The translations under genes were made by a program, and so were the position numbers. From Cliona cf. orientalis (taxonomy: Eukaryota > Porifera > Demospongiae > Clionaida > Clionaidae), in NCBI GenBank assembly GCA_963930775.1, contig OZ005703.1, positions 5,518,001 to 5,582,000 on the forward strand: a DNA stretch of 64,000 nt, read 5' to 3'. Below the pieces are notes generated by a model. The model was not told the DNA's origin. It worked only from the letters and a program-made list of their open reading frames with translations, and did not search any database. How positions within the stretch are numbered: position 1 is the stretch's first letter; each line of letters opens with the position of its first letter. Positions 1 through 57,965 of this stretch are shown here, piece by piece.

Positions 1-19
1 ATGTACAAACTTATTATAG

Positions 20-3000
20 GTCGGTACAAATGGAATCCTCTCCTTTGGTAGAGATTTCCGTCAGGATGTACCTGAAGCGTTTCCTTCCACTGATGCTGAA
101 ATCTACTTTTCTTACCTTGTGGCTCCCTACTGGTCTAATATTGACACACGTTTGGATGGTCAAGTCAACTATGAAGTATACGTGATGGGAGAGAGTATCA
201 CATCAGATGATTATCTTGGACGCGTTTCCACTCTCATCAACTCGGAGCAAGATCCAGCCTTCACTGGGAACTGGATGATAGTGGTGACCTGGGATGGAGT
301 GCACCCCTTCCCTCATGGAAACTCTGCTGAACAAGATAGAGTTGATCCATATCTTCAATCAGTGAGTACCTACAAATGCTGCAAAGTAATTAGCTTTCTA
401 ATAAGGGGTGTATATAAGCCAAGAGAAAATACTGGATTATAACACATGCATCAACTTGTGGGAAATATTATATAGCCTATGTTTTTCCTCTTTGCTTAGG
501 TGAACACCTTCCAAGGCATCCTGATCACTAACGGCACAAAGTCTTACTCTGTGTTCACCTACGAGTGTGATCAGATGGAGTGGTCTGATGAGGCTACCAT
601 TGGCTTCAATGCCGGTGGAGAGTACAATGCCTCACACCCTCTCAGTGGCACTCTCCTTGCCAATGCCGTTGACTGTCTCCACATCAATATAAATGAGACA
701 GTGAATAACATAATCTATGACCTTGTCCGTGGAGAACTGAATGTTGGCACCACCCCACCTCCCCCATCTTCTCTAGGTGTGCTTGGACATTATAATGTGC
801 TGTGAATTAATTCAAAATCATTAATGTACATGTGCATGTATAGGTTCCTGTGTGGCTGCTGAATACTCTGACTGCTGTGAGGATGGCGTTTGCCTTGGGC
901 ATATTCTAGATTGCTTCTGTGATGAATTCTGTTACAACTTTGATGATTGCTGCAATGATGTTGCTGATATTTGCTCTATTGGTAATAATAATGTATTCCT
1001 ATTGTTTATCCTAGTAACAATGTTATCTTCCATATTCTTCATTTTCTATTTGGACACGATGTACAACAGAGGCACCACTTGGTAAGATCATACAGATATA
1101 GTGGTATAATACTGTATACTTACTTACATTTAACCCTCATTTCAGGGAATGAAACCTATCTTGTATTTGGAACTGTGGAGCTGCTTAGTCGTGTCAGTCT
1201 GGCAGGAAATGACCTTCATGTTCTTGTCCACCAGCCAAATACAGCAGTACTGGGCGTCGACTATGACTATCAGTATGTACTCTTATTGATGTAAAAAGTT
1301 ACCTTACAATGTCATATATATCTGCTACCCCAACAAAGACGAGGTTACCTCTACTGGTCTGAGGGTATTGGTGATGTGATGTATCGATCGGGCATGGATG
1401 GCTCCAATATTGAAGTTCTGTTGAACACGAGTATTGATGTGGTTGGTGAGTGGACTCAGCAGTATCAAAAAATGTATTTATTGACTCGTGTTCAATTCGC
1501 TGTAGATGATATTGCATTGGATTGGATCGGTAACAATCTTTATTGGACTGATGCTGTCCATGCTCGGATTGAAGTCATGGATATGGACACTGGGTACCGC
1601 ATGGAGCTAATGAGAACAGGAGCCAACACAATACCAAGGGCAATTGCAGTTGATCCCAGTACTAGGTGAGTTCTCTAAGTCCCCAGCGTGGCCTAGTTTA
1701 GTTAAAACTGGTGTTAGTAGTTGATCTAGTTAAACTTTACTAGCTAGATCCAGTAGTTAACTTAGTGATTAAATTTTGGTTTTTCTTGTTCTAGGGTCAT
1801 GTATTGGACTGACTGGGGTGATGAAGCAAGGATAGAAACAGCATCAATGGATGGCTCAGACCGAAGAGTCCTGCACAATACTGAGCTCACCTGGCCTAAT
1901 GGTCTCACTATTGACTACCTAGCTCAGAGAATCTACTGGGTGGATGCTTTCGAAGATAAAATAGAATACTCAAATGTCGATGGCAGTGGAAGATTTTTGC
2001 TTCTCTCTGACCTAGACCATCCATTCTCTATAACTCTGGAGGGTAATCTACTCTTCTGGACAGATTGGATAAACAATGCCATTCATGCCACTCATAAGAT
2101 CTCAAGTACTGGTGCTAGCTTTGTCTATAACAATCTACGAGATAGACCTTTCGGAATTGAAGCAGTTACCCCAACCCGCCAAGCCCTAAATAGTAAGTAT
2201 AACCTCTGTTTTACATTGGCACTCTGAATATTACTCATTCTCATAACCTTTTAGTATCCAACCCATGTGACAGTACATCATGCAACTATATGTGTCTGTT
2301 GAGCTCAACTGATCAAAATGGCTACAGCTGTGCATGTCCAGATGGCTATGAACTCTCTTCCAATAATGCTGACTGCACATGTAAATTAATCACTCTTATG
2401 CATGGATATTAGATAAGATATTGATTATCTACTTTACCAGTTGTTGGTACTCTACCTCCACCGACTGCTGTTGGCTCATGTGCTGATGCTGGATACCAGA
2501 ACTGTTGTATTGCTGGCTACTGTGCCGGAAGTCCTCCGACCTGCAGCTGTGATATAGCGTGCTATCTGCGAGGAGATTGCTGTCCTGATGCAAATATGAC
2601 ATGCCCTCGTGGATCATGTGCAGCTGCTGGTTACAGAGCATGTTGCACTGATGGTGGTACTTGCCGAGGGAGTGCAGGGTGCTTCTGTGACTACGCTTGC
2701 ACCTTCTTTGGTGACTGTTGCTACGATTTTGAGGACCTCTGTCCGACTAGTGTTGGCACAGTGGTAGGCTCTTGTGCTGCTGCTGGCTACAGTACATGTT
2801 GTGATGATGGATCAGAGTGCTTGGGCACTCCTGCCAACTGCAAGTGTGATGCTGAGTGCAGAGATCATGGAGACTGCTGTGCTGATATTGGTTCAACATG
2901 TCCAGTTATCCGTAAGTTCTTTAAGGAGAAGAGAGTGCTTGCATTTCCGTAATATTATTATTATTATACTTCCATTACAGCTTCTGGAAATTTCACTGTT

Positions 3001-3911
3001 CAAATAAGTAAGTTTTAGCTATTAAGGGTCAAATCTATATGATTATATTATTATGGTTCTCAAATGCACAGCCTGGCTGCCGTTTCTTACCCTGCGTGCA
3101 ACACCAGGTGTGGTAACAAATTCATTGGCAGCTGTTGATGATGGTGCGTCTCCTGCCATTTCCATACCAACTGGCTTTCCCATTGGGAATTCAAACCAAT
3201 CTGTTGCCTACGTAAGTACTTTTCTACAAACTATTCATACTAGCTATTATTTGTAATTGTTCTGTAGATTGGTACAAATGGAGTGATATCTTTCCAGCAA
3301 CCCTTCACCTACCACATTCCCTCTCTTTTCCCTTCTTCTCTAAGCTTTGTCTCATCGGCTTACCTTCTTGCTCCATTTTGGAGTGACGTAGACATATCCA
3401 TTTATGGTTCCATATTCTATGAAGTACACAGTGATTCTGACTCCTTGCTGATCCAGCAAGTAAACAACTTCATTTCAAATCAAACAGAAACTGACTTTAG
3501 TGGCACATGGATGTTGGTAGTTCAGTGGGATGAAGTTCGTCAGTATCCAGGATTCTTAACAATTCCAGTAAGTACAGTAATGATTTGTATGATTGTATCA
3601 TTGCATGAATAATACTTTCGTAATAATAATTATTTAGACCAACACATATCAAGCCATTGCTATCACTGATGGTTCCCAGTCCTATGCTGTGTATACCTAT
3701 CGATGTGGAGACCTGCAGTGGCCTGGAGGAGCCACCATTGGTTACAATGGAGGCCCAGTTGGAGGATTCTATGAAAACCATCCCTTATCTGGTGCTGCTG
3801 CAAACAGTATCGCTTGTATTAACACTGGTGTGACAGAGTGGTCCAATGTGATCTACAATGTCAGCATTGATACATATATCCCCACTGGTCAACCACCTAC
3901 TGATGAATCAG
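20..3911 (+). CDS. Repeat unit 1 (partial): NIDO-A end, SMB, YWTD propeller, EGF, 3 SMB, NIDO-B
   Basis: Exons: 20-361 and 500-776 (rest of NIDO-A); 844-981 (SMB, 8 Cys); 1070-1081 (12-nt microexon, E-A-P-L-G across the junctions); 1146-1272, 1339-1445, 1506-1665, 1795-2192 (propeller of about 264 residues with YWSE, YWTD, YWTD, YWVD and FWTD blade motifs); 2255-2380 (six-Cys EGF after the propeller, as in LDLR and nidogen); 2441-2911 (three SMB domains with CC and DCC motifs); 2981-3007 (27-nt microexon); 3072-3211, 3268-3567, 3638-3911 (NIDO-B). The NIDO-C domain and first NIDO-A exon of this unit lie left of the window. The 82-base intron after the SMB exon is the shortest version of an intron that is 344-880 bp in the other units. 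Confidence 0.88.
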
Positions 3912-6900
3912 GTGAGTAACATTTCATTTGTATAATATAAGTCAAAGGTATGACATTTGCTCTTGGTATACCAACACAGTGACAGAGAATGAATAAGTAA
4001 CATGTATTATTGCCTATAGCTTTGACTGCCGTGATGCAGTCTTCTTCATGGCATTAGTAATGAATACAAAACTTTAGCTTAGAGTTCAGTTTGTGGTTGT
4101 GCGGCCTTGACCGCATCCACAGTGGGCCCACTAGTATAATAATCGTCAGAGTCTTGTATCGTAATTCGCATTAACACAAACTTTTTGTGTTATAAATTTT
4201 CGTACAACAATATTTTCGTCAATTTCAAGCGTGCACCATATATTCACTGTGTAAGTTAGTATAGGTAAACTATTTTCGGTTAAATAATTTTCATCACTTA
4301 GTGGAAAACGAAATCTTTTAACAACGAAAATTTTGCAAACTACGGTAGTATGGATGGTTCCTCTATGTAGCCTCTAAATTTTCTTATTTTTATTGCTTGA
4401 TCACGGAGGTTTCCAGAAGTGCTATTTGTCAAATTGTAGTGTGAAATATCCATGCTTTCTATGCTCAGCGCTATAGGCAGAATTATCTTTATAGACATAT
4501 ACTTGACTGCCAGCTATAATGCTGGATGTCCTCCAAATAATATTATTCGATTGATGCGTGCATACACACATATAATCAAGTAGTCAACTTGAACACGAGT
4601 CTCCAACACTATAATTATCTTTTGCTATTTTTCCAGGGCTTCCCTATATCTCACTGGGTACAACAGATGGAGTTGAGAGAGAATACGTCGGCCACTTTGA
4701 TGATGGAGCCTCACATGCCATCCATATTCCAAATGGATTTCCATTTGGAAATTTCATTCACTCCTCAGTTTACGTAAGTAGCCAAACACTTGCACATTGT
4801 TGACACTGCATGTTATACATGTAGTATATCACAATCCACTACTGACCATTGATGTTAATTGGTAAACATTTACTGCAATTGCATGCTATACAACAGGTTG
4901 GAACCAATGGGATCTTCTCATTCTCTGCACCATTCTACTCAGCAGTTGCTCGGGCTTTCCCCAGCACACTAAGCACAGTGGCTAATGCATATCTTGTGGC
5001 ACCATACTGGGATGATGTAGACATACGTCTGGCCGGAAACATCTCTTATGAGGTGCATTCAAGGAGCAGCAATAATCCTGGATCCATCCAACTGCTTGAT
5101 CAGATCAGCCAATTTGTAGAAGACTCAACTGATGATGCATTTCAGGGAGACTGGATGCTGGTTGCTGAATGGGAGGAAGTCCATCCTTGGCCACATGGTT
5201 TGGACAATCCAATATTCCAAATTTTCTTTCCGGAATTGGTACTGGTAAGTTAGCCTCAGATTCAGCGAGGAATTGTATGTATTCATAAGGTACCATGTAT
5301 TATACATGCATGAGATTGCTCTTAATTCTTAAAATTAATGTTCATTATCATGTGCTCTACTACCATACTTGATATAATTATTTCTCGTCATAGAACAACA
5401 CTTGGCAAGGACTAGTGATAACTGATGGTGCCACTTCATATGCTGTCTTCACCTATCGCTGTGGAGACATGAACTGGGCTTATGGTCCAACCATTGGATT
5501 CAATGCTGCTGGAGACTACTATGTCAACCATCCCAATACTGGCAGTACAAGTGGCGAGGAGATTGCCTGTCTTAACTCTCCTACAAGCCAGTGGTACAAC
5601 TTAGTGTATGAGATCAGCCTACCAAATGCCACCAACCTGACAGCTGAGCTACCTACTGTCGAGCCACGTAAGACTGCTATTAAGCACAATGTCATTGTAA
5701 ACAATGTGATAGTTACCTCTTCTGTAATTGCAGCTCAAAGTAGGTATTTGTCATTTTTGGAGTTCACAAACAGCACAGCAACCTCAGGCACTCTACCTCC
5801 CTGTCAGAACTGTACTGTTGCCATCACTGTTCCAGGAAATGGATTTCCCTTTGGTTCTTACTACCATTCAACGATCTATGTAAGATTTTTGTCTGAGATT
5901 GTCATTGATCATTTAATTCACATACAAAATTATTATAGGTCGGTACAAATGGAATTCTCTCCTTTGGTAGAGATTTCCGTCAGGATGTACCTGAGGAATT
6001 CCCTTCCACTGATGCTGAAATCTACTTTTCTTACCTTGTGGCTCCCTACTGGTCTAATATTGACACACGTTTGGATGGTCAAGTCAACTATGAAGTATAC
6101 GTGATGGGAGAGAGTATCACATCAGATGATTATCTTGGACGTGTTTCTGCTCTCATCAACTCGGAGCAAGATCCAGCCTTCAGTGGGAACTGGATGATAG
6201 TGGTGACCTGGGATGGAGTGCACCCCTTCCCTCATGGAAACTCTGCTGAACAAGATAGAGTTGATCCATATCTTCAATCAGTGAGTACTTAAAGACTTGC
6301 AATCTTTGGCATATTATACATGTCCATTTTAGAACTAAAGTTAGCAACTAGCTGGGCTAAAACAACTTATAGCTAACAAACTTACTAGAAATAATCTATC
6401 CAGCTTTTTATGTGTCTCCTCATTACTTAGGTGAACACCTTCCAAGGCATCCTGATCACTAATGGCACAAAGTCTTACTCTGTGTTCACCTACGAGTGTG
6501 ATCAGATGGAGTGGTCTGATGTGGCTACCATTGGCTTCAATGCCGGTGGAGAGTACAATGCCTCACACCCTCTCAGTGGCACTCTCCTTGCCAATGCCGT
6601 TGACTGTCTCCACATCAATATAAATGAGACAGTGAACAACATAATCTATGACCTTGTCCGTGGAGAACTGAATGTTGGCACCACTCCACCTCCCCCATCT
6701 TCTCTAGGTAGTGCCACTTTGCTGCATCCAATAACCAGTTGAACGTTTGTGACCTTTGAATTTGTTCTTCTTTTGTAGGTTCCTGTGTTGCTGCTGGATA
6801 CTCTGACTGCTGTGAGGATGGTACTTGCCTTGGGCATATTCTAGACTGCTTTTGTGATGAGTTCTGTTACAATTTTGATGATTGCTGCAGCGATGTTCCT

Positions 6901-9900
6901 GATATTTGTTCTATTGGTAAATACTTAATGCATGATAATATTAGTCTGACATGTATGTACCCTTCATTATCCATTAAGGTCAGTTCACTATGTGTTGTTT
7001 CAAAGCACACTTTTTTCATGATCAGATGCAAGGACTCTATGCAAAGGAACATAAGGATAGAACGCAGGGCTATCCTAGTGTTGCGTTGTAGCATGAATGT
7101 GAGGGGGACGCAATGCAACAAAAGTTCTTGCATCCTTGTGAACTGATCTTAAGAGTAATATATTGTTACTCAAATTAAACCCTTTTCTCAGTAGACTTTG
7201 TATGTAAGAGTTGTAGAGTAGATCATCGAAATCCGGACGGTTTTTATAAAGCAACCCATAACTTTCGGACATAATAATGATTTTAAATGATAGAGTACTC
7301 AGTAGATAAAGCTACCAGTCAGCTAACGAATGACGCAAACCGTATGTCCCAATCTTTGTTGCAACGCATGCAAATTGTGCTCAAAGATACAGTGTTACAA
7401 ATTTATAAACTGGACCTCCGCTTCAAATCTCGGACATGCTTGCATATTCTATCTTGGTGATGATCAGAATCGGTCAACGCTGCTACAGGTACATGCACTA
7501 GCAGCTAACTCCGGTCCACCATTTCGATCGTGTTTAGCCACGCCCACCAGTGGGACTCCACCCAATCATTTTCGATGAATCGGACGCAAATAGAGGATGA
7601 CTACTGGCTAGCTCCACTTGTAAGCTAAAGAAAGTTGTAGGAAGCATGGAATCATTTAGTATATGGCCTACCATGATTGTGGTTCCGACCAAACTCATCT
7701 AAAACCGCATGTCCGGGATTCGACGATATCCGATGATTGGTAAATTACTCTACTTATCTATATTAATCATCTTTTTTCCACATGATGATGAAACAGAGGC
7801 ACCACTAGGTAAGTCAAAAGCTCACATGCTCCCTCCAATAGTGTAAACATCGGCTCTATTGTTATCTTAACTAAATAGGAAACGACACTTATCTAGTTTT
7901 TGGAAGTATTCAGCTGTTGACCCGTGTTGGTCTGACAGGAAGTGACCTTCACGTTCTTGTCCACCAGCCTAATACTGCTGTACTAGGAGTAGACTTTGAC
8001 TATCGGTAAGTGTCAATCAAGGTGTGGTAAATTCTGAGCCATAAATCAATAAGTAATTTAACATTTACTACGATCTATTTTGAAGACGTGGTTACCTCTA
8101 CTGGTCTGAGGGTATTGGTGATGTGATATATCGATCGGGTATGGATGGTTCCAATATTGAAGTTCTGTTGAACACGAGTATTGATGTGGTTGGTGAGTGG
8201 ACTCAGCAGTATCCAAAAATGTATCCACCGATATGTATTCAATTCGCTGTAGATGATATTGCATTGGATTGGATCGGTAACAACCTTTATTGGACTGATG
8301 CTGTACATGCTCGGATTGAAGTCATGGATATGGACACTGGGTATCGCATGGAGCTAATGAGAACAGGAGCCAACACAATACCAAGGGCAATTGCAGTCGA
8401 CCCCAGTACTAAGTGAGCTACTATAATATCTAAGTCCCCAGTGTGGCCTAGTTTAAAAGAGAGGATAGTGTTATTAGTAGTTGATCTATAGCTAGATCCA
8501 GTCATTGGTTGTGCTTGTTCTAGGGTCATGTATTGGACTGACTGGGGTGATGAAGCAAGGATAGAAACAGCATCAATGGACGGCTCAGACCGAAGAGTCC
8601 TGCACAATACTGAGCTCACCTGGCCTAATGGTCTCACTATTGACTACCCAGCTCAGAGAATCTACTGGGTGGATGCTTTCGAAGATAAAATAGAATACTC
8701 AAATGTCGATGGCAGTGGAAGATTTTTGCTACTCTCTGACCTAGACCACCCATTCTCTATAACTCTGGAGGGTAATCTACTCTTCTGGACAGATTGGATA
8801 AACAATGCCATTCATGCCACTCATAAGATCTCAAGTACAGGTGCTAGCTTTGTCTATAACAACTTTCGAGATAGACCTTTCGGAATTGAAGCAGTTACCC
8901 CAACCCGCCAAGCCCTAAATAGTAAGTATAACCTCAGTTTTCAATGGTACCGCAGATCTGAATAATCATTATACTCATTTTGTTTAATTTTTCAGTAACA
9001 AATCCATGTGATGGTACATCGTGTAGCTATATGTGTCTGTTGAGCTCAACTGATCCAAATGAGTACAGCTGTGCATGTCCAGATGGCTATGAACTCTCTT
9101 CCAATAATGCTGACTGCACATGTAAGTTAATTAGCACTCTCATGCATGTCAGTGATGATATTTTATCTGCAGTTGTTGGTACTCTACCTCCACCGACTGC
9201 TGTTGGCTCATGTGCTGATGCTGGATACCAGAACTGTTGTATCGCTGGCTACTGTGCCGGAAGTCCTCCAACCTGCAGCTGTGATGTAACCTGCTATCTG
9301 CGAGGAGATTGCTGTCCTGATGCAAATATGACGTGTCCTCGTGGATCATGTGCAGCTGCTGGTTACAGAGCATGTTGCACTGATGGTGGTACTTGCCGAG
9401 GGAGTGCAGGGTGCTTCTGCGATTATGCTTGCACCTTCTTTGGTGACTGTTGCTTCGATTTTGAGGACCTCTGTCCGACTAGTGTTGGCACAGTGGTTGG
9501 ATCCTGTGCTGCTGCTGGCTACAGTACATGTTGTGATGATGGATCAGAGTGCTTGGGCACTCCTGCCAACTGCAAGTGTGATGCTGAGTGCAGAGATCAT
9601 GGAGACTGCTGTGCTGATATTGGTTCAACATGTCCAGTTGGCCGTAAGTGTGTAGAAAAATAATGAAATATCACTGCAATCATGTGAATTTATTATTCTT
9701 GTGCAGCTCCTGGTAATTTCACAGTTCAAATGAGTAAGTAAAACTATGTTGGAGATTGATACATCACAAATTTTTAACTCTTAAATGCATAGCCTGGTTG
9801 CCATTCTTGACCCTGCGTTCAACACCTGGTGTGGTTACTAGTTCAGTTCCAGGAGTTGATGATGGTAGTTCTCTTGCCATTCCCATACCCACTGGATTCC

Positions 9901-12900: not shown

Positions 12901-15900
12901 GTTGAACATTTGTGACCTTTGAATTTGTTCTTCTTTTGTAGGTTCCTGTGTTGCTGCTGGATACTCTGACTGCTGTGAGGATGGTGTTTGCCTTGGGCAT
13001 ATTCTAGATTGCTTCTGTGATGAGTTCTGTTACAATTTTGATGACTGCTGCAGTGACATCACTGATGTTTGCTCTATCGGTAAATTAATGTTATCTGTTT
13101 GATCAACCATGCTTGATCTCTATCTGAAAGTGATATGTTTAGGTTGTACCCTTTAGTAATTTAAATTAAATGTGAAGCTCCCCACATGGATCCGATGGGA
13201 ATTCTTGATTAGCCATCTAATTTACTTCATGCACGTTATTTCGCACTCAATTTTATACAGCAACATTTAATACATTTAGCCATTGTTTCCTAATGGATGC
13301 CCAAATCAGTGATGAAACTTTCTTTTCTTGCAAGAGGGAATGATTTAATATGTATAATGTTACCTTTTTGCATAATCTTATTCATATTTTTTTCTCACTG
13401 CTGCTCTCATAATGATGAAACAGAGGCACCACAAGGTAAGTGAAAGTTTAAACAACCACACCCAAAGAGTGTACATGTCCATTAATTTTTGTTTTAATTA
13501 GGAAATGACACCTATCTTGTTTTTGGAAGTATTCAGCTGTTGAGCCGTGTTGGTCTGACAGGAAGTGACCTTCACGTGCTTGTCCACCAGCCTGACACAG
13601 CTGTACTAGGAGTAGACTTTGACTATCAGTAAGTTACTTTCTAGCAGTGCAGTATCCTCTTAATTTTAGATAACAACTGATAATAATATTATAGTGATGA
13701 ATAATTGCTAACTTTTGTGATTCAATTCAGGCGTGGTAACCTCTACTGGTCTGAGGGTATTGGTGATGTGATATATCGATCGGGCATGGATGGTTCCAAT
13801 ATTGAAGTTCTGTTGAACACGAGTATTGATGTGGTTGGTAAGTGAATTCAGCTGTGTCCAAAATGTATTGAATTTGGCCATGTTTAATTCACTGTAGATG
13901 ATATTTCAATGGACTGGATTGGTAATAATCTTTACTGGACTGATGCTGTCCATGCTCGGATTGAAGTCATGGATATGGACACTGGGTATCGCATGGAGCT
14001 AATGAGAACGGGAGCTAACACAATACCAAGGGCAATTGCAGTCGACCCCAGTACCAGGTAAACTGAATCCTCCTGAAAGTAACAATAGAGAAGCTAGCAG
14101 TATTAGTAGTTGAACTAAAGATTTAATTAATTATAATTTGGCGTTGATTCTCTCTTATTCTAGGGTCATGTATTGGACTGACTGGGGTGATGAAGCAAGG
14201 ATAGAAACAGCATCAATGGATGGCTCAGACCGAAGAGTCCTGCACAATACTGAGCTCACCTGGCCTAATGGTCTCACTATTGACTACCCAGCTCAGAGGA
14301 TCTACTGGGTGGATGCTTTCGAAGATAAAATAGAATACTCAAATGTCGATGGCAGTGGAAGATTTTTGCTGCTCTCTGACCTAGACCACCCATTCTCTAT
14401 AACTCTGGAGGGTAATCTACTCTTCTGGACAGATTGGATAAACAATGCCATTCATGCCACTCATAAGATCTCAAGTACTGGTGCTATCTTTGTCTACAAC
14501 AACCTTCGAGATAGACCTTTCGGAATTGAAGCAGTTACCCCAATCCGCCAAGCCCTAAATAGTAAGTATAACCTTAGTTTTACATCGGCACTCTGAATAT
14601 TACTCATTCTCATAACCTTTTAGTATCCAACCCATGTGACAGTACATCATGCAACTATATGTGTTTGTTGAGCTCAACTGATCCAAATGAGTACAGCTGT
14701 GCATGTCCAGATGGCTATGAACTCTCTTCCAATAATGCTGACTGCACATGTAATTTAAATTAATCACTCTTATGTATAGATATTAGATAAGATCTTGTTT
14801 ATCTACTTTACCAGTTGTTGGTACTCTACCTCCACCAACTGCTGTTGGCTCATGTGCTGATGCTGGATACCAGAACTGTTGTATCGCTGGCTACTGTGCT
14901 GGAAGTCCTCCAACCTGCAGCTGTGATGTAACCTGCTATCTGCGAGGAGATTGCTGTCCTGATGCAAATATGACGTGCCCTCGTGGATCATGTGCAGCTG
15001 CTGGTTACAGAGCATGTTGCACTGATGGTGGTACTTGCCGAGGGAGTGCAGGGTGCTTCTGTGACTATGCTTGCACCTTCTTTGGTGACTGTTGCTTCGA
15101 TTTTGAGGACCTCTGTCCAACTAGTGTTGGCTCAGTGGTAGGCTCTTGTGCTGCTGCTGGCTACAGTACATGTTGTGATGATGGATCAGAGTGCTTGGGC
15201 ACTCCTGCCAACTGCAAGTGTGATGCTGAGTGTAGAGATCACGGAGACTGCTGTGCTGATATTGGTTCAACATGTCCAGTTGGCCGTAAGTGTGTAGCAA
15301 AGTAATGAAATGTCACTGCAATCATGTGAATTTATTATTCATTCTTGTGCAGCTCCTGGTAATTTCACAGTTCAAATGAGTAAGTAAAGCTACGTTAGAG
15401 ATTGATACATCACTAATCTGTAATTCTCAAACGTATAGCCTGGTTGCCATTCTTGACCTTGCGTTCAACACCTGGTGTGGTTACTAGTTCAGTTCCAAGT
15501 GTTGATGATGGCAGTTCTCTTGCGATTCCCATACCCACTGGATTCCCCATTGGAAACTCCAACCAATCTGTTGCTTATGTAAGTATTGAAAATGCTGTGA
15601 GTCATGACCTGAAATCTTGTACTTTCTAGATTGGTACAAATGGAGTGATTTCTTTCCAGCAACCCTTCACTTTCCACATTCCCTCTCTTTTCCCTTCTTC
15701 TCTAAGCTTTGTCTCATCGGCTTACCTTCTTGCTCCATTTTGGAGTGACGTAGACATATCCATTTATGGTTCCATATTCTATGAAGTACACAGTGATTCT
15801 AATTCCTTGCTGATCCAGCAAGTGAACAATTTCATTTCAAACCAAACTGAAACCGACTTCAGTGGCACATGGATGTTGGTAGTTCAGTGGGATGAAGTTC

Positions 15901-18900
15901 GGCAGTTTCCAGGATTCTTAACAATTCCAGTAAGCTCTATTATAAGTGTTACTTATTCTCCAATTCATTGCATGATTACTTTTTATTTACCGTGATATAG
16001 ACCAACACTTATCAAGCCATTGCCATTACTGATGGTTCCCAATCCTATGCTGTGTATACCTATCGATGTGGAGACCTGCAGTGGCCTGGAGGAGCCACCA
16101 TTGGTTACAATGGAGGCCCAGTTGGAGGATTCTATGAAAACCATCCCTTATCTGGTGCTGCTGCAAACAGTATCGCTTGCATTAACACTGGTGTGACAGA
16201 GTGGTCCAATGTGATCTACAATGTCAGCATTGATACATACATCCCCACTGGTCAACCACCTACTAATGAATCTGGTAAGTTACCGTAATAGTTGACCATG
16301 AATCATGTGGAATATTTGCATGATCTAAGATTGCTGGATCAAAAAAATTAAAAAGTGGCAGTAAATTCCTGTGTATATGTAGACGTTAAAGGGTTTACAT
16401 CTTGTGTGCACTCGTCCAATCAAATCCTTTGTCTTTTGCTATTTTCCAGGGCTTCCCTATATCTCACTGGGGACAACAGATGGAGTTGAGAGAGAATACG
16501 TTGGCCACTTTGATGATGGAGTCTCACATGCCATCCATATTCCCAATGGATTCCCATTTGGAAATTTTATTCACTCCTCTGTTTATGTAAGTAATATAAA
16601 TTATCAGTTATAATTATGTCCAAGATTGAACACTGATATTAACTACTAGAGCTTAGTAGTAGCTAAGAGTTAATATTCTGTGCATAACAGATTGGAACCA
16701 ATGGTATCTTCTCATTCTCTGCACCATTCTACTCGGCAGTGGCTGTGGCTTTCCCCAGCTCACTAAGCACAGTAGCTAATGCATATCTTGTGGCACCGTA
16801 CTGGGATGATGTAGATATACGTCTGGCTGGAAACATCTCTTATGAGGTGCATTCAAGGAGCAGCAATAATCCTGGATCCATCCAACTGCTTGATCAGATT
16901 GGCCAATTTGTAGAAGACTCGACTGGTGATCCGTTTCAGGGAGACTGGATGCTGGTTGCTGAATGGGAGGAAGTCCATCCTTGGCCACATGGTTTGGACA
17001 ATCCAATATTCCAAATTTTCTTTCCGGAATTGGTCCTGGTAAATTAAATTATGCACAGAGTTAGTGTAGAATATCAAAATTTTTTATAATTTTACACACA
17101 AGGAATTGGTTTTTTTTTATTGGTGTCGCAAAAGCTTGATTTATGATCTACAGTTAGCTACCTTCATATTGTGCTCGATTAGCATGCACAGTCTATGAAA
17201 TTATTTTTTCTCTCCCAGAACAACACTTGGCAAGGACTTGTGATAACTGATGGTGCCACTTCATATGCTGTCTTCACCTATCGCTGTGGAGACATGAACT
17301 GGGCTTATGGTCCAACCATTGGATTCAATGCTGCTGGAGACTACTATGTCAACCATCCCAATACTGGCAGTACAAGTGGCGAGGAGATTGCCTGTCTTAA
17401 CTCTCCTACAAGCCAGTGGTACAACTTGGTGTATGAGATCAGCCTACCAAATGCCACCAACCTGACAGCTGAGCTACCTACTGTCGAGCCACGTAAGACT
17501 GCTATTACCGTATAGCCGGAAATATTGGCGGGCATTAAATTTGGCGGTTGAGTCCAAAATCGCAATTGAAAGAATATTAATTTGGTGGTTCGGTACGGGA
17601 TTGCCATACGTATATATGCGAGTAGGAATTTTTGGCGGATTTTAATTTGGCGGTTGTAATAATAGACCGCCAAACCGCCAAATTTTCCGGCTGTATGGTA
17701 TGATTAATTTTTATAGTAACAGCAGTTCTAGATATGAGGTAATAATATATTATCATTTATAGCTCAAAGTAGGTACCTAGGAATTTTGGAGTTCACAAAC
17801 AGCACAGCAACCTCAGGCACTCTACCTCCCTGTCAGAACTGTACTGTTGCCATCACTGTTCCAGGAAATGGATTTCCCTTTGGTTCTTACTATCATTCAA
17901 CCATTTATGTAAGCGGAGTCAATTACTTGCTATAAAAGTGAACACTCATATGACATCATGATATTATAGGTTGGCACAAATGGAATCTTCTCCTTTGGTA
18001 GAGATTTCCGTCAGGATATACCTGAAGCGTTTCCTTCAACTGATGCTGAAATCTACTTTTCTTACCTTGTGGCTCCCTACTGGTCTAATATTGACACACG
18101 TTTGGATGGTCAAGTCAACTATGAAGTGTACGTGGTGGGAGAGAGTATCACATCAGGTGAATATCTTGGACGTGTTTCTGCTCTCATCAACTCAGAGCGA
18201 GATCCTGCCTTTACTGGGAACTGGATGATAGTGGTGACCTGGGATGGAGTGCACCCCTTCCCTCATGGAAACTCTGCTGAACAAGATAGAGTTGATCCAT
18301 ATCTTCAATCAGTGAGTACTAAAGACTTGCAATCTTTGGTGTATAATGATATGTCCATTATTAGAGTTAAAATTAGCAGCTAGCTCAATGATGGCATCCT
18401 AAAGCAACTTATCTAGCCTGCTGTGTTTGTCTCTTTGCTTAGATGAACACCTTCCAAGGCATCCTGATCACTAACGGCACAAAGTCTTACTCTGTGTTCA
18501 CCTACGAGTGTGATCAGATGGAATGGTCTGATGAGGCTACCATTGGCTTCAATGCCGGTGGAGAGTACAATGCCTCCCACCCTCTCAGTGGCACTCTCCT
18601 TGCCAATGCCGTTGACTGTCTCCACATCAATATAAATGAGACAGTGAATAACATAATCTATGACCTTGTCCGTGGAGAACTGAATGTTGGCACCACCCCA
18701 CCTCCCCCATCTTCTCTAGGTGTGCTTGGACATTATATTGTGCTGTGAATTAATTCAAAATCATTAATGTACATGTGCATGTATAGGTTCCTGTGTGGCT
18801 GCTGGATACTCTGACTGCTGTGAGGATGGCGTTTGCCTTGGGCATATTCTAGACTGCTTCTGTGATGAATTCTGTTACAATTTTGATGACTGCTGCAGTG

Positions 18901-21900
18901 ACATCACTGATGTTTGCTCTATCGGTAAATTAATGTTATCTGTTTGATCAACCATGCTTGATCTCTATCTGAAAGTGATATATTTAGGTTGTACCCTTTA
19001 GTAATTTAAATTAAATGTGAAGCTCCCCACATGGATCCGATAGGAATTATTGATTAGCCATCTAATTTACTTCATGCATGTTATTTTGCACTCAAGTTAT
19101 ACAGCAACATTTAATACATTTAGCCATTGTTTCCTAATGGGATGCCCAAATCAGTGATGAAACTTTCTTTTCTTGCGAGAGCAAATGATTTATGTATAAT
19201 AATTATTAACCCTACTTGCATAATCTGATTCATATTTTTTTTTTCACTTCTGCTCTCATAACGATGAAACAGAGGCACCACAAGGTAAGTGAATATTTAA
19301 ATAACCACACCCAAAGAGTGTACATGTCCATTTTGTTTTAATTAGGAAATGACACCTACCTTATTTTTGGAAGTATTCAGCTGTTGACCCGTGTTGGTCT
19401 GACAGGAAGTGACCTTCACGTTCTTGTCCACCAGCCTAACACAGCTGTACTAGGAGTAGATTTTGACTATCGGTAAGTTACTTTCTAGGAGTGCAGTATC
19501 CTCTTAACTTTAGACAACTGATATAGTGATAAATAATGGCTTACTTTTGTGATTCAATTCAGGCGTGGTTACCTCTACTGGTCTGAGGGTATTGGTGATG
19601 TGATATATCGATCGGGCATGGATGGTTCCAATATTGAAGTTCTGTTGAACACGAGTATTGATGTGGTTGGTAAGTGAATTCAGCTGAGTCCAAAACATAT
19701 TAAATTTTACCAATCCATGTTTAATTCACTGTAGATGATATTTCAATGGACTGGATTGGTAACAATCTTTATTGGACTGATGCTGTACATGCTCGGATTG
19801 AAGTCATGGATATGGACACTGGGTACCGCATGGAGCTAATGAGAACGGGAGCCAACACAATACCAAGGGCAATTGCAGTCGACCCCAGTACCAGGTAATC
19901 TGAGTTCTCCAGCAGTATTCGTAGTTAAATTAAACATTTAGTTAATTGTGAGATAATTTGGCCTTGATTCTAGAGTAATGTATTGGACTGACTGGGGTGA
20001 TGAAGCAAGGATAGAAACAGCATCAATGGATGGCTCAGACCGAAGAGTCCTGCACAATACTGAGCTCACCTGGCCTAATGGTCTCACTATTGACTACCCA
20101 GCTCAGAGAATCTACTGGGTGGATGCTTTCGAAGATAAAATAGAGTACTCAAATGTCGATGGCAGTGGAAGATTTTTGCTTCTCTCTGACCTAGACCACC
20201 CATTCTCTATAACTCTGGAGGGTAATCTACTCTTCTGGACAGATTGGATAAACAATGCCATTCATGCCACTCATAAGATCTCAAGTACTGGTGCTAGCTT
20301 TGTTTATAACAACCTTCGAGATAGACCTTTCGGAATTGAAGCAGTTACCCCAATCCGCCAAGCCCTAAATAGTAAGTATAACCTTTGTTTTTCACAGACA
20401 CTCTAAATATTATTTGTTATCATAACTTTCAGTAACAAATCCATGTGATGGTACATCGTGTAGCTACATGTGTCTGTTGAGCTCGACTGATCAAAATGGC
20501 TACAGCTGTGCATGTCCAGATGGCTATGAACTCTCTTCCAATAATGCTGACTGCACATGTAAATTAATCACTCTTATGCATGGATATTAGATTAGATATT
20601 GATTATCTGTTGTTAACAGTTGTTGGTACTCTACCTCCACCGACTGCTGTTGGCTCATGTGCTGATGCTGGATACCAGAACTGTTGTATCGCTGGCTACT
20701 GTGCCGGAAATCCTCCAACCTGCAGCTGTGATGTAGCCTGCTATCTGCGAGGAGATTGCTGCCCTGATGCAAATATGACATGCCCTCGTGGATCGTGTGC
20801 AGCTGCTGGTTACAGAGCATGTTGCACTGATGGTGGTACTTGCCAAGGGAGTGCAGGGTGCTTCTGCGACTACGCTTGCACCTTCTTTGGTGACTGTTGC
20901 TTCGATTTTGAGGACCTCTGTCCGACTAGTGTTGGCACAGTGGTAGGCTCTTGTGCTGCTGCTGGATACAGTACATGTTGTGATGATGGATCAGAGTGCT
21001 TGGGCACTCCTGCCAACTGCAAGTGTGATGCTGAGTGCAGGGATCATAGAGACTGCTGTGCTGATATCGGTTCAACATGTCCAGTTGGCCGTAAGTTTGT
21101 AATGAATTGATGAAGTGTCATTGCAATCATGTTAATGCTTTTTTATTTCTTTGCAGCTCCTGGAAACTTCACAGTTCAAATGAGTAAGTGAAGCTAATAA
21201 TATTATTGCATTATACCTTATCTTTTATTCTCAAATACTTAGCCTGGTTGCCATTCTTGACCTTGCGTTCAACACCTGGTGTAGTTACTAATTCAGTTCC
21301 ACGAGCTGATGATGGTAGTTCTCTTGCCATTCCCATACCCACTGGATTCCCCTTTGGAAACTCCAACCAGTCTGTTGCTTATGTAAGGATCAAAATTTCT
21401 TATTAGTTAGGCTAGTTGATAATCAATGATTAATAATATTATGTTTCTGTATCTTGTAGATTGGTACAAATGGAGTGATTTCTTTCCAGCAACCCTTCAC
21501 CTACCACATTCCTTCTCTTTTCCCTTCTTCTCTAAGCTTTGTCTCATCGGCTTACCTTCTTGCTCCATTTTGGAGTGACGTAGACATATCCGTTTACGGT
21601 TCGATATTCTATGAAGTACACAGTGGTTCTGACTCCTTGCTGATCCAGCAAGTGAACAATTTCATTTCAAACCATACTGAAACTGACTTTAATGGCACGT
21701 GGATGTTGGTAGTCCAATGGGATGCGGTTCGTGAATTTCCAGGATTTTTGACAATTCCAGTAAGCTCTAGTGATTTTGATCATTATTTTCAAGGGTGCAC
21801 TGATCATGGATTATTGTTTTATTGTTTTACGTAGACCAACACATATCAAGCCATTGCCATTACTGATGGTTCCCAATCCTATGCTGTGTATACCTATCGA

Positions 21901-24900
21901 TGTGGAGACCTGCAGTGGCCTGGAGGAGCCACCATTGGTTACAATGGAGGCCCAGTTGGAGGATTCTATGAAAACCATCCCTTATCTGGTGATGCTGCAA
22001 ACAGTATCGCTTGCATTAACACTGGTGTGACAGAGTGGTCCAATGTGATCTACAATGTCAGCATCGGTATGTTCTTTCCTACTGGTCAACCAATAACCAC
22101 TGAAACTGGTGAGCTTTATCGCATGCTAGCAATTCTAGGGCTCATAATAATTGCGAGTTTATGTCTATAGCTTCACTCTTGTCTTATGATATACATTGTG
22201 CACTAGTGAATGCAACCACATCGCCCTTCACCTCACAATCACCCATGACGACTCAATCCCCTACTTCACAACCAACAACAGCTTCTCCTACTACAACGAA
22301 CAATATCACACTGCAAACAACAACTCTGCTGACTTCAGGTCCCACAACTGGGCAACCTCAGACCACTCAGCCAACAGGTGCCACAACTACACCACAGCTA
22401 AGTAAGTGCTGTGTGTATCATCATAATTAATATCTAGCAAAGTTCAGTGCACATCTTTGTTGTTAAGAGAAGTTGTTACCGTGACAGTCACAGGATGAGC
22501 TTCGAATTCTCAAATTGCCACATATCTCATTGCATTCGGTTCTGTTGTTTTGCACCCAAAGATGTCAAGGTCTAGATGTCATAATGAGTGAAAAGTGTAA
22601 TTCAAGAGTTAGAAACTAAGGGCTTAAGAGCTATTAGTCCTTCCCTGAACTATGATGGCCCATGCATTGATAGGACAGGTAGCATGTGCAACTGAGGCAA
22701 CCCATAACCTGTTTTCACTGTGCATGCATGCATGGGTGGTGCAGCTGGTGCTTGTGGTCCTCATCTAGTGCTTAGTAACTGAAGGAAAATGAGTCACTTT
22801 AATTTTTCGTTATTCATGATCAGTTAATTACAACTATTATCAGTATGCCAATATAATATATATTGTAGTCCAGATGGTGAATAATAAACTGGTATATTTT
22901 GCACCTAATACTTGTCCCATAGGAGCTCTCATGATTAGCTACACTAATTCATACACTCTATAATATGCACAGTATTACGAAGTACCCAATTGGGATAAGT
23001 ACTATTACGTGGAAATGTTCCAGGTTGTTATCCATAAACCTTGTAGCTATGTTCGTCATACCGATAGTAGTTATAATTAACTGGATTATGACAACTATGA
23101 TGAGATAGGTGGTAGTGTGTGGAACCAACGCAACCCACTTTAGATAAAATTAATGTGATCCACTTGTTTTGGGTGTATGTTCATTGGCCATGCTTATCAG
23201 CACCTGGTAATACTGTACACTGTTGACTGATGCACTCAATGGCATGTTGTATGAGCCGGGTAAATGGTGTTCTGTAGAACACTCGATTGTATACAATTTA
23301 AAACATACACCTTATGATCAATGTTTACGATATTATAGGTGCTCCTGGCTCAGTTGATGGCCTTTCTGCTGTATCTCCTGATGGATCTGTCACTACATTG
23401 ACTGTGACATGGAGTGCCCCAGCCCAGCCAAGTGGAACAGTCTCCCAGTACTTTATCATAGTTACAAACTATTCCCTTGCTTTAGTTACAAACAAGACTG
23501 TATCTGGTATCACTACCTCAACCAGTGTGACTGGCCTGGGTAAGTTCTTGGGAAGAAAAGCTTTGGTGTAACTACTCCCCACTAGTCTAAACAATGATAA
23601 TTAATTTTGCATGATTACCAGATATTGCTCTGCGTCTCTATGTGTTTGCACTCAATTACTATATTACTGCTTATTTACTTTTGTTTTCCAGGTCCCTTTA
23701 TTCCATACAATGTGACTGTGATCGCATCAAATGCAATTGGTAACAGTACTCCAATGTCTATTCTCAGCTTCACTCAAGAAGGAGGTCAGTGATTATTCAT
23801 TGGCAGTTGCATATTGTCACGGTTGACTGCTGGATGATATGGTGTGGATGATGAAACTTTGCAGGGGTTGTCATTTGAAAATTGATCTCATCTTAAGGGT
23901 TATTAAAATTTGGGCACAGTTCATTTAGTTCCAAATTCCTTTTCTTTTGGCTATCACTGGGGGAAACTACAATAACAAACTCCTCTTAACACTGATATTC
24001 CTCCAAATTAAAGAGTTGTACATGTATCTGTCCATCACAGTGCCCCCAGTTCCACCTTCCAATATCAAGGTTGAGGCCGAATCCGATACCAAGCTAACAG
24101 TTACCTGGGATGCTTTGACTCCAGAGGAAGCCTGGGGATTTGTTACCTACTACACTGTTTCCTACAAGAAACCCACAGCCTCTGATACTGGCCTTGGCAT
24201 GGAGATAAGTGTCGCAGGCATCGAAACCTCACTTCAGATTGAAGGTCTCGACCCGAATCAGGACTACATCATTGTCATGTGGGCAAATACAACTGCTGGT
24301 ATGGGAGAACAATCCAAACCAATATCTACCAAAAGTGAGTGATCACATCTATGAAGAAATTAATATGCCGTATTTCTTCCAAAAATTCGGCCCTTCTAAT
24401 TATTCGGCACCCTTTACCGAATGATTGAAAATAGTCGGCAAAGGTCGTCACGCGTATATGCTATAAACGGGAATAGAATGCGCGCGAACGCAGACAGAAT
24501 GTTGAATAATAATATTATTAACCTCTAAAAATTCGGCGAAGCTAAAGCAATATTATTATTTTCATGCCGAATGTTTAGAAGAAGTACGGTAGAATGAACT
24601 TGAGAGTTTAATTTATCCCATGTAGCATCTACTGGCACTGTTGTTGGTGGTGCAAAAATCAGTGGTGGTGGCATAGCCGGGATCTTGGTTGGAGCTATTG
24701 TAGGACTAGTCGTGCTTGTTTTGGTGGTACTAATTGCTGTCTGGATGTTCAGAAAATACAAGAAGAAATCTGTGGCGGGCTATGATTTCTTGTAAGCCAA
24801 CAATGAAATAACTACACGTATAATAATATTATGACTACCTATAATATTATTATTATGGATAATCACGATTGTGAAATAAAAATACTGATCATTTTAAATG

Positions 24901-25266
24901 ATTGGTACCTTCATGCATGCTCGAGCTCATCGATGCATTACTGTTACTATTATTGTGAATCTTAATTCCAGTAGTGACTCAGCTTCAATGACCAGTGAAA
25001 CCAGCAGTGGAGATTTCAGGCCAAGAATGGACTCCTATCAGTCAAAATTCAAGAAGAAGCAGCTACAGCTAGAAGAAGTTGAAGGCAAAGTGAAGCCCAC
25101 CAGCTACAAGCCTATGGGTGGAGTGACGTCATTTGAGAATCCCTTGTATGAATCCAATCCTCAGCCAGAGGTATTTGCACTGCCAGGGGTAGCTTCCTAT
25201 GCAGATGATTCTTCTAAGACGTATGTGAACGTTGGTGAAGAAAAGGTGGATCTGAGTAAACTGTGA
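20..25266 (+). CDS. Giant modular NIDO/SMB/YWTD/EGF/FN3 single-pass receptor, 5' partial, 74 exons in window
   Basis: A single open frame of 15555 nt results when 74 exons with GT..AG borders are joined (exon lists are in the unit entries). It encodes 5184 residues plus a stop at 25264-25266. Order in the window: partial unit 1, complete units 2-4, Thr/Ser/Pro stalk, two FN3, one transmembrane helix, cytoplasmic tail. In total there are 11 NIDO domains (the first partial), 16 somatomedin B domains, 4 YWTD propellers and 4 EGF domains. NIDO plus YWTD plus EGF recalls nidogen; YWTD-EGF plus a cytoplasmic FxNPxY-like motif recalls LDL-receptor relatives. Function is inferred: a very long adhesive or endocytic surface receptor. 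No start codon or signal peptide is visible, so the gene continues upstream. Splice borders are my reading of the sequence, supported by identical exon lengths in all copies and by the frame closing exactly. Confidence 0.9.
3912..4636 (+). other. Long intron between units 1 and 2
   Basis: The intron is 725 bp, against 171 and 175 bp at the equivalent positions between units 2-3 and 3-4. The extra sequence is AT-rich with no convincing reading frame and no recognised element; an old insertion is likely but I could not define its ends. Confidence 0.55.
4637..10628 (+). CDS. Repeat unit 2 (complete): NIDO-C, NIDO-A, SMB, YWTD, EGF, 3 SMB, NIDO-B
   Basis: Exons: NIDO-C 4637-4773, 4897-5244, 5394-5667; NIDO-A 5734-5879, 5939-6280, 6431-6707; SMB 6779-6916; microexon 7797-7808; propeller 7879-8005, 8086-8192, 8253-8412, 8524-8921; EGF 8996-9121; three SMB 9173-9643; microexon 9707-9733; NIDO-B 9793-9932, 9984-10283, 10355-10628. 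They sum to 3804 nt, exactly 1268 codons, with no exonic indel against the other units. NIDO domains show the family pattern G-T-N-G-(I/V), a Y-(L/F)-(V/L)-A-P-(Y/F)-W core and W-D/E-E/G-V-(H/R). The donor after 8412 reads AA|GTGAGC where unit 1 has AG|GTGAGT, changing one Arg codon to Lys. The intron before the 12-nt microexon has grown to 880 bp. Confidence 0.88.
6917..7796 (+). other. Long intron before the microexon in unit 2
   Basis: This intron is 880 bp, against 88, 344 and 348 bp in units 1, 3 and 4. The extra middle part (roughly 6960-7740) holds no recognised coding sequence. A transposon remnant is plausible, but I saw no clean terminal repeats. Confidence 0.5.
10800..16274 (+). 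CDS. Repeat unit 3 (complete): NIDO-C, NIDO-A, SMB, YWTD, EGF, 3 SMB, NIDO-B
   Basis: Exons: NIDO-C 10800-10936, 11060-11407, 11556-11829; NIDO-A 11904-12049, 12112-12453, 12594-12870; SMB 12942-13079; microexon 13424-13435; propeller 13502-13628, 13731-13837, 13898-14057, 14164-14561; EGF 14624-14749; three SMB 14815-15285; microexon 15353-15379; NIDO-B 15439-15578, 15630-15929, 16001-16274. Exon lengths equal those of unit 2. NIDO-C, together with its first intron (10937-11059), appears identical to unit 2 (4774-4896), whereas unit 4 has an unrelated intron there. This points to recent gene conversion or unequal exchange between units 2 and 3. Confidence 0.88.
16450..22108 (+). CDS. Repeat unit 4 (complete, last): NIDO-C, NIDO-A, SMB, YWTD, EGF, 3 SMB, NIDO-B
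   Basis: Exons: NIDO-C 16450-16586, 16691-17038, 17219-17492; NIDO-A 17763-17908, 17970-18311, 18443-18719; SMB 18787-18924; microexon 19273-19284; propeller 19346-19472, 19563-19669, 19735-19894, 19974-20371; EGF 20433-20558; three SMB 20620-21090; microexon 21157-21183; NIDO-B 21243-21382, 21460-21759, 21835-22108. The end of NIDO-B has diverged (M-F-F-P-T-G-Q-P near its C-terminus), and splicing then runs into the stalk exon rather than another NIDO-C. That marks this as the final unit and fixes the natural unit boundary after NIDO-B. The intron 17493-17762 carries a MITE absent from the other units. Confidence 0.88.
17508..17698. mobile_element. MITE in an intron of unit 4
   Basis: The ends are inverted repeats: left CCGTATAGCCGGAAATAT, right complement CCATACAGCCGGAAAATT. 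Internal GGCGGTT / AACCGCC stretches extend the hairpin. The element is about 191 bp, flanked by TA on both sides. The same intron in units 2 and 3 lacks it, so the insertion is younger than the unit duplication. No coding capacity. Superfamily not assigned. Confidence 0.75.
22207..22401 (+). CDS. Thr/Ser/Pro-rich mucin-like stalk exon of the giant receptor
   Basis: This 195-nt phase 1-1 exon encodes about 65 residues dominated by Thr, Ser, Pro and Gln (for example T-T-Q-S-P-T-S-Q-P-T-T-A-S-P) with N-x-T sites. Such a composition normally carries dense O-glycans and acts as an extended spacer. It links the last NIDO-B to the first FN3 domain. It begins after the AG at 22205-22206 and ends before GTAAGT at 22402. 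The exon is short and low in complexity, so its exact borders are a little less secure than those of the repeat exons, but both splice phases fit. Confidence 0.8.
22402..23338 (+). other. Long intron between stalk and FN3-1
   Basis: A 937-bp AT-rich stretch between donor GTAAGT and an acceptor ending TTATAG. I see no gene or recognisable repeat in it. Confidence 0.6.
23339..24334 (+). CDS. Two membrane-proximal FN3 domains of the giant receptor
   Basis: FN3-1 is encoded by exons 23339-23539 and 23692-23784; FN3-2 by exon 24041-24334. Each domain is 294 nt (98 residues). Both show the fibronectin type III pattern: Pro-rich start, L-T-V-T-W core Trp in strand B, a tyrosine near strand C (Q-Y-F or Y-Y-T-V-S-Y), a Leu-rich strand E turn (V-T-G-L or I-E-G-L) and Y-x-V-x-V/I-x-A-x-N near the end. 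The outer borders are phase 1. The region is membrane-proximal, a usual place for FN3 spacers in animal receptors. Confidence 0.85.
24364..24591. mobile_element. TIR element in the intron before the TM exon
   Basis: The left end (GCCGTATTTCTTCCAAAAAT) pairs imperfectly with the complement of the right end (ACCGTACTTCTTCTAAACAT), both followed by TCGG. The element is about 228 bp with no reading frame. Short non-autonomous DNA transposon is the simplest reading. Confidence 0.6.
24626..24791 (+). CDS. Transmembrane exon of the giant receptor
   Basis: After a Thr/Gly-rich lead, this exon encodes a hydrophobic helix of about 25 residues beginning G-G-G-I-A-G-I-L-V-G-A-I-V-G, followed by a basic stop-transfer stretch R-K-Y-K-K-K. 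It predicts one membrane span with the modules outside and the C-terminus in the cytosol. The small-residue spacing (G-x-x-x-G type) is compatible with helix-helix dimerisation; that is inference. The exon ends in phase 2 at GTAAGC. Read-through would instead give a stop three bases later, so intron retention here would produce a receptor with almost no cytoplasmic tail. Confidence 0.82.
24972..25266 (+). CDS. Cytoplasmic tail exon with FxNPxY-like endocytosis motif, and stop codon
   Basis: This last exon encodes about 98 residues, rich in Ser, Lys, Glu and Pro, ending K-V-D-L-S-K-L-stop. The codons at 25132-25149 spell F-E-N-P-L-Y, which matches the F-x-N-P-x-Y motif of LDL receptor and LRP tails. 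In those proteins the motif binds PTB-domain adaptors and drives clathrin-mediated uptake. Other tyrosines (Y-Q-S-K-F, Y-K-P-M, Y-V-N-V) could be phosphorylated. The YWTD-EGF ectodomain together with this motif suggests an endocytic receptor; no ligand can be named. No clear AATAAA signal was seen soon after the stop. Confidence 0.85.
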
Positions 25267-57371: not shown

Positions 57372-57965
57372 CACAGTTTAGTTTTCTTTATAGCCAGTGG
57401 CACAAATTTTGGAGAAAAAAGGCACAGTTGGCAAAGCATAGCCATCGAAAAATAGGCCAACCACTCACATAGATACGTGTGCTCCAATTTCTATACGAAT
57501 GGCACCAAAAAGTACCCAAAGAGGTAAGAGCTGTTGCGAGAACAACTGTGATGAGGAATATAAAAAGGGGCACCTTTATTGTGTCCTTGAAGTGAGGTTT
57601 CTTGATGCGGCGAGTCTGAGTAGCCATGAACATGACAAAGATGATCAGAATTTCTGAGTACAAGGATGTGGCTAATAGCCAAATTACCTGGTTTTGGCTA
57701 TTGCATTCGATGCTGAATTGATAGTGTGATGGTGTTGCTGAAGGAATGCACTCTCGACTGATTTTATGATGTAAGGTGTCCAAGTAAATCCAAAGGAATA
57801 GGACAAATAGCTACTTTCACTGAGCATATGTGTATCGTCTGGATATGACACCACATTTAATAGGTACAAAGTTGAGCAGTTTGTCTGCATGTTCTCACTG
57901 CTTGCTGTAGATCCTCCAAAGATCAGACTGAAGATTACTAACACAGTTAAACAGGCTGAAGCTTG
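57372..57965 (-). pseudogene. B-type GPCR remnant 2 with the same internal deletion
   Basis: Duplicate of the remnant at 47281-47830: N-terminal signal segment and first strand, then a jump to helix 4 through helix 7, with the parts out of frame. The frame 57783-57388 (minus) still spells loop 2 to helix 7 with I-E-C and a decayed K-D-T-I-K-V loop 3. It differs from remnant 1 by small indels. A product limited to a signal peptide plus a short tail is possible but not supported. Confidence 0.85.

Follow-up and report, generated by a model that had tools for sequence, protein, structure and literature searches.

In the LDL receptor and the LRPs (LRP2 or megalin, LRP4, LRP6 and others), a YWTD propeller is followed by an EGF domain, and this pair, which has a role in ligand release in LDLR-type receptors, is repeated in a giant ectodomain. 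Clusters of LDLa, the module with which LRPs usually bind their ligands, accompany it, and a single transmembrane (TM) segment leads to a tail in which NPxY is a sorting signal that brings in a PTB-domain adaptor, leading to uptake by clathrin. In nidogen, one protein combines NIDO with a YWTD propeller, SorLA/LR11 has YWTD-EGF with FN3 domains ahead of one TM, and mucin-4 and Mesh are single-pass surface proteins with NIDO. For sponges, published studies report a nidogen in Ephydatia muelleri (PMC7385117), describe an Aphrocallistes sequence annotated as nidogen that has NIDO alone, NIDO being called not nidogen-specific (PMC10280926), and assign SRCR proteins with LDL-receptor and YWTD domains, among three sponges, to Stylissa carteri only (PMC4772301). 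Further papers mention one NIDO gene in connection with how D. avara responds to symbionts (PMC11229196) and list LRP1/2/4/5/6 among animal gene families (PMC6040629). A figure legend for Halichondria panicea lists NIDO, somatomedin B-like (SMB-like), EGF, FN3 and LDLa as receptor domains, and their combination is possible there (PMC8242945). NIDO, SMB and YWTD in one protein were not found in the partially covered open-access literature, nor in the excerpts of PMC5395295, PMC8380372, PMC3447736 and PMC12549020.

We analysed a 64,000-nt stretch of the Cliona cf. orientalis genome (the window, C15:5518001-5582000; assembly of 216.8 Mb in 149 contigs) together with 60 kb of DNA upstream of it, using a splice-aware gene finder trained on local open frames. 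The first automatic model (5,149 aa) ran through the stop codon into the next gene, skipped some exons in individual copies of the unit, such as SMB1 in unit 1, and lost the EGF exon except for a fragment in unit 2, and was replaced by a copy-guided model rebuilt using the four copies of the repeated unit (Table 1). An FN3-like stretch seen by eye on the 5' side, near -2950, gave no match at E ≤ 1 and was dropped. The gene starts 2.3 kb upstream of the window, which contains most of it; the preliminary description had counted more than 5180 residues in the window alone, and the 5,506 aa now obtained are those of the whole gene including this upstream part. All introns are GT-AG (median 74 nt), the spliced model has no internal stop, and the stop codon is at 25264-25266. 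Exons 1 and 2 encode MILSQKLRAGQILLSMLILVEFAQAQQ, which reads by eye as a plausible signal peptide, and the predicted protein continues with four units, a Ser/Thr stalk, two FN3, one TM and a tail with FENPLY, so that the stalk, FN3, TM helix and tail previously placed after the units are all present (the two FN3 by Pfam, the single TM by hydropathy). Only one segment in the entire protein, aa 5364-5399, reaches a Kyte-Doolittle mean of 1.8 over 19 residues. Neighbouring units are separated by stretches of 725, 171 and 175 nt, with exons in phase on both sides and a highest mean hydropathy in the three forward frames of 1.63, 1.34 and 1.34, respectively; the two short ones would be too short for gene boundaries. 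Because there is a single signal-peptide-like start, a single TM and short inter-unit stretches, the earlier proposal of one giant single-pass surface receptor is supported as a prediction from sequence. If retained, all three junction introns would bring a stop soon after NIDO-C, and short secreted forms are therefore conceivable. Elsewhere in the genome, at C3:3211000-3211700, a stretch of 147 nt duplicates the gene's 3' end at 85.7% identity, covering the last codons and the beginning of the 3' flank.

Table 1. Features of the receptor gene and its relatives on contig C19 (window coordinates unless a contig is named; negative numbers lie upstream of the window)
Feature	Position	Strand	Content or basis
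Whole receptor gene model	C15:5515728-5543266 (-2272 to 25266)	+	75 exons, 5,506 aa
Signal peptide exon (exon 1)	-2272..-2200	+	spliced model
preA, unit 1	-1395..-1223	+	spliced model
NIDO-A, unit 1	-1024..-677, -524..-251	+	spliced model
preB, unit 1	-184..-39	+	spliced model
In-window portion of 75-exon gene	1..25266	+	0 stops, 74/74 introns GT-AG
Unit 1 remainder, overall	20..3911	+	copy alignment; Pfam NIDO, Ldl_recept_b, sub-threshold SMB and EGF
NIDO-B, unit 1	20-361, 500-776	+	
SMB1, unit 1	844-981	+	
YWTD propeller, unit 1 (four exons)	1146-1272, 1339-1445, 1506-1665, 1795-2192	+	
EGF, unit 1	2255-2380	+	
SMB2-4, unit 1	2441-2911	+	
preC, unit 1	2981-3007, 3072-3211	+	
NIDO-C, unit 1	3268-3567, 3638-3911	+	
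Unit 2 (17 exons, order as unit 1)	4637..10628	+	copy alignment and model
Unit 3 (17 exons, order as unit 1)	10800..16274	+	copy alignment and model
Unit 4 (17 exons, order as unit 1)	16450..22108	+	copy alignment and model
Ser/Thr-rich mucin-like stalk exon	22207..22401	+	open, in phase, GT-AG
Two FN3	23339-23539 + 23692-23784; 24041-24334	+	Pfam fn3 E 1.3e-23, 2 stretches
Transmembrane exon	24626..24791	+	hydropathy, aa 5364-5399
Cytoplasmic tail, FENPLY (FxNPxY) and YVNV, stop	24972..25266	+	5' edge 24975 also possible
C19 gene 1	C19:812553-827238		full unit 52-83% identical, partial second unit, FN3-FN3, tail match; tblastn
C19 gene 2	C19:828675-837450		one unit, extra NIDO, FN3-FN3; TM and tail in automatic model
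Third C19 relative	C19:991927-1005766		three NIDO-SMB-YWTD-EGF-SMB blocks; tblastn
C19 cluster without NIDO match	C19:797360-804910		SMB-like, YWTD, EGF; tblastn

The repeating unit of NIDO, SMB, YWTD and EGF described earlier is present in four copies, its length being 1,264 aa (17 exons, 3,792 nt) and not 1,268. It brings together domains that as a rule belong to different proteins. Each unit runs NIDO-A, NIDO-B, SMB1, YWTD, EGF, SMB2-4 and NIDO-C, that is, three NIDO, one four-exon propeller, one EGF and four SMB-like domains, which gives 12 NIDO, 16 SMB-like, 4 propellers, 4 EGF and 2 FN3 in the whole protein when units 2-4 are counted by homology. The Pfam scan covered unit 1 and the C-terminal 413 aa in five pieces (aa 1-1300 and 5094-5506). 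In unit 1 the three NIDO scored 71.8, 94.9 and 97.1 bits (cut-off 25), and Ldl_recept_b scored 107.7 bits (E 4e-31, 4 stretches); compared with solved structures, NIDO-B gave two chance-level matches only (E 0.12 and 0.13). The EGF stays under the Pfam cut-offs (cEGF 22.2, FXa_inhibition 22.3 bits), and the alignment with LRP2 nonetheless spans it. The somatomedin B domain is an 8-Cys pattern. For the assignment of that domain to the unit the evidence is divided: a profile built from six of the domains matches PDB chains of EndoU (1.2e-5), ENPP3 (0.0019) and vitronectin (0.36), but PF01033 remains below its cut-off in unit 1 (20.1 vs 23.1 bits) and the domains are a variant with ten conserved Cys. 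Since their fold prediction (pLDDT 49) is unusable, 'SMB-like' is the safe name. Genome-wide, the 10-Cys SMB-like domains have 67 matches and Pfam somatomedin B has 7; several of the SMB-like matches lie close to Ldl_recept_b in places where no NIDO match is listed (C1:15.39 Mb, C14:2.68 Mb, C16:2.08 Mb and C18:5.64 Mb).

The propeller with its EGF was then compared with solved chains, scoring 221.3 bits with LRP4, 211.9 with LRP6, 192.7 with the best stretch of LRP2, with which it aligns over its length, 154.6 with LDLR, and 136.9 with nidogen, whose chain comprises the propeller only (240 residues aligned). For this reason the comparison was made per aligned residue, which gives 0.82 bits for LRP4, 0.78 for LRP6, 0.68 for LRP2 and 0.57 for both LDLR and nidogen. 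The predicted receptor shares with the LDLR/LRP family the repeated YWTD-EGF pairs, the single TM and the NPxY tail, but it has NIDO and SMB-like domains where LRPs have LDLa clusters, four near-identical units and an FN3 stalk. It differs from nidogen in being membrane anchored, with 12 NIDO and 4 propellers. No LDLa was found by Pfam in unit 1 and the C-terminus, and none of the 58 LDLa matches in the genome falls in the gene; no G2F was found in the scanned pieces, and the genome-wide search for it gave 0 candidates, being silent in control genomes too and hence no evidence of absence from the genome. Because neither LDLa nor G2F was found in the gene, the predicted receptor is neither a proper LRP nor a nidogen. 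In the scanned pieces no VPS10 or LDLa was found, a difference from SorLA/LR11, in place of whose modules there are NIDO and SMB-like domains; nor were AMOP, VWD or Sushi, a difference from mucin-4 and Mesh.

The architecture had been presented as an unrecognised one, which is not supported in that form: the gene belongs to a small family within this genome, with at least three relatives on contig C19, and its propeller-EGF core scores best with LRP chains. NIDO has at least 167 exon matches in the genome and Ldl_recept_b has 70, and among the matches listed the two are co-located, by eye, at six loci, one in the window, two on C19 and one each on C5, C6 and C11. The relatives were compared by tblastn of window exons against their loci, with 20 kb covered on C5. 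In the three C19 relatives NIDO, SMB-like, YWTD and EGF occur together. C5, C6 and C11 carry NIDO and YWTD-EGF arrays, in each case with an LDLa beside the YWTD matches; on both C11 and C6, seven YWTD-EGF pairs are flanked on either side by NIDO, at loci that may each hold more than one gene. The automatic models on C19 contain errors, the start and some exons of gene 1 being unsettled and the third relative being fused with its neighbours. In gene 1, 14 of the 17 unit exons have AG/GT borders and the window length modulo 3, while the borders tried for exons B2, SMB1 and Y2 misfit splice sites. In both gene 1 and gene 2 the protein finishes with FN3-FN3-TM followed by an NPxY tail, the motifs being FENPLY and ENPVY in the former and, as read by eye, YQNPLY in the latter. 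The tail of gene 1 matches the window tail significantly (E 2e-6, 52% over 68 residues), and gene 2 matches the window C-terminus weakly over the TM (E 0.068). In the third relative, the tail start SDTESETGSTFG... is related, and NPxY was not found in the 2.8 kb read. Just upstream of it, at C19:1010661-1014857, SRCR-like repeats and a hydrophobic segment were seen by eye. Alignments of NIDO and YWTD against contig collections gave no relative in any of four scans; these collections are of prokaryotes and viruses and are therefore uninformative on other sponges.

Class C GPCR open frames form a tandem array around the gene, occupying 25528-62000 of the window and extending upstream to -54347. 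ANF_receptor and 7tm_3 were found in all four array open frames scanned, the gene preceding the receptor is a GPCR ending near -5153, and some members are, by eye, split into several frames (e.g. 48659-50958 and 57388-57810, both on the minus strand). Such an array is in keeping with a sponge, as more than 120 metabotropic GABA receptors are reported for Ephydatia muelleri (PMC7385117). Two further minus-strand features were noted by eye: a 1,256-aa open frame from about -40977 to -37210, in which a long N-terminal part precedes several hydrophobic segments close to the C-terminus, and reverse-transcriptase-like open frames at -31742 to -30249, probably a retroelement. In the genome at large, and likewise pointing to a sponge, the motif CGASYAF, which we take to be of silicatein type, has three matches in one cluster on C12 (reversed pattern 0), and a fourth, on C19, reads CGACYAF.

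The gene is well supported by the sequence, from which we infer its function. We consider it an LRP-like, multivalent, endocytic type I receptor with a probability of about 0.6. Its core block would be an LRP-type propeller with its EGF, flanked by NIDO and SMB-like disulfide knots and multiplied to four via tandem copying and unequal exchange or gene conversion. The ectodomain may act as a long multivalent ligand catcher with its four propellers, twelve NIDO and sixteen SMB-like domains, held off the membrane by the stalk and FN3; after surface display and multivalent capture, NPxY would recruit a PTB-domain adaptor and lead to clathrin uptake, the route taken by the LDL receptor and LRPs. 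Material captured outside the cell is thus probably carried in by the receptor, plausible ligands being matrix glycoproteins, lipoprotein particles and microbial material. The earlier suggestion of endocytosis agrees with the tail: when it was shuffled 100,000 times, FxNPxY arose in 96 cases and NPxY in 1,141, and the genome has six exon matches to PTB (PID) domains. Amnionless is part of an endocytic receptor, and the TM and tail match its C-terminus weakly in Pfam (E 0.0014, 17.9 bits, under the cut-off of 30.4). Against an endocytic reading speak the third C19 relative, without NPxY in the 2.8 kb, the weak match of C19 gene 2, which leaves the tail of gene 1 as the one significant tail match, and the fact that no LDLa was found in the gene. 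The main rival is a cell-matrix or cell-cell adhesion receptor, since the tails of integrin beta chains, which are adhesion receptors, also use NPxY and since SMB2 of every unit contains RGD (aa 940, 2204, 3468 and 4732). NIDO, SMB-like and FN3 domains would then bind matrix or integrins, repetition would give strength, and the tail would couple to talin-like PTB proteins. This is possible though rather doubtful: NIDO and SMB are known from matrix proteins, an FN3 stalk is present and uptake is likewise deduced, but the RGD sits between cysteines inside the knot (CYLRGDCC) and therefore may not be exposed, it is kept in C19 gene 1 and replaced by HRN in gene 2, and FxNPxY together with the LRP-like propeller favours uptake.

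The history of the units bears on the other alternatives. Exons were traced in two sets (14 and 3), giving 68 comparisons, 17 of which are unit 3 against itself. None of the 68 contained a gap, 16 of the 17 unit exons align ungapped in all four copies, and AG/GT borders are conserved in all comparisons but one, the 5' edge of preA in unit 1; this first exon of the unit adjoins the signal-peptide exon there, and its start lies elsewhere. Any two units have 94.2-96.7% identity in their coding exons (3,655 nt, ungapped) and 94-97% in protein, while identity in the 15 intra-unit introns is 75.8-87.7%, each pair showing 54-119 gap blocks. In all six unit pairs dS is 0.11-0.17 and dN/dS 0.12-0.17. 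Identity is mosaic, units 2 and 3 sharing 99.7% in exon A1 and units 3 and 4 99.1% in B1, with unit 1 diverging in Y1 (79-81%) and preC2 (76-79%), which suggests partial gene conversion or unequal exchange among units. Such near-identical tandem units could change in copy number by unequal exchange, as a variable recognition receptor for immunity or allorecognition, differing among individuals in unit number or sequence, would require; we consider it unlikely, because purifying selection between units is seen in all nine segments, and the self-recognition suggested previously is unsupported, dN/dS being below 0.5 in 54 of 54 comparisons within this one genome (maximum 0.47; NG86, nine segments by six pairs, the short segments being noisy). 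Ungapped near-identical exons, low dN/dS and diverged, gapped introns thus look like a constrained gene, and separate genes, a pseudogene and an assembly artefact were set aside on the copy alignment, spliced model, constraint and junction lengths. Misassembly, or several distinct or dead genes side by side, might be invoked for the high repeat identity, the first junction of 725 nt and a single-gene model predicted from genomic sequence, but is very improbable, as the units differ at synonymous sites with diverged introns and intact exons, only one signal-peptide-like start and a single TM are predicted, the second and third junctions measure 171 and 175 nt, and the C19 relatives show the same domain order.

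For the endocytic receptor preferred here, the family as a whole could, quite speculatively, represent a sponge receptor class that reworked LRP-type propellers into giant arrays together with NIDO and 10-Cys SMB-like domains, with the unit number changing by tandem amplification. If so, receptors with NIDO and YWTD could take the matrix-linking role of nidogen at the membrane, and could underlie some of the 'nidogen' calls in demosponges. Sponge matches to NIDO and YWTD need not be nidogen, a caution relevant to the debate on basement-membrane genes in early animals. Furthermore, the gene offers a route by which a giant receptor may be assembled, from an LRP-type core, new partner domains and fourfold copying of a constrained 17-exon block, and it suggests an LRP-like toolkit beyond the classical LDLa-based design.
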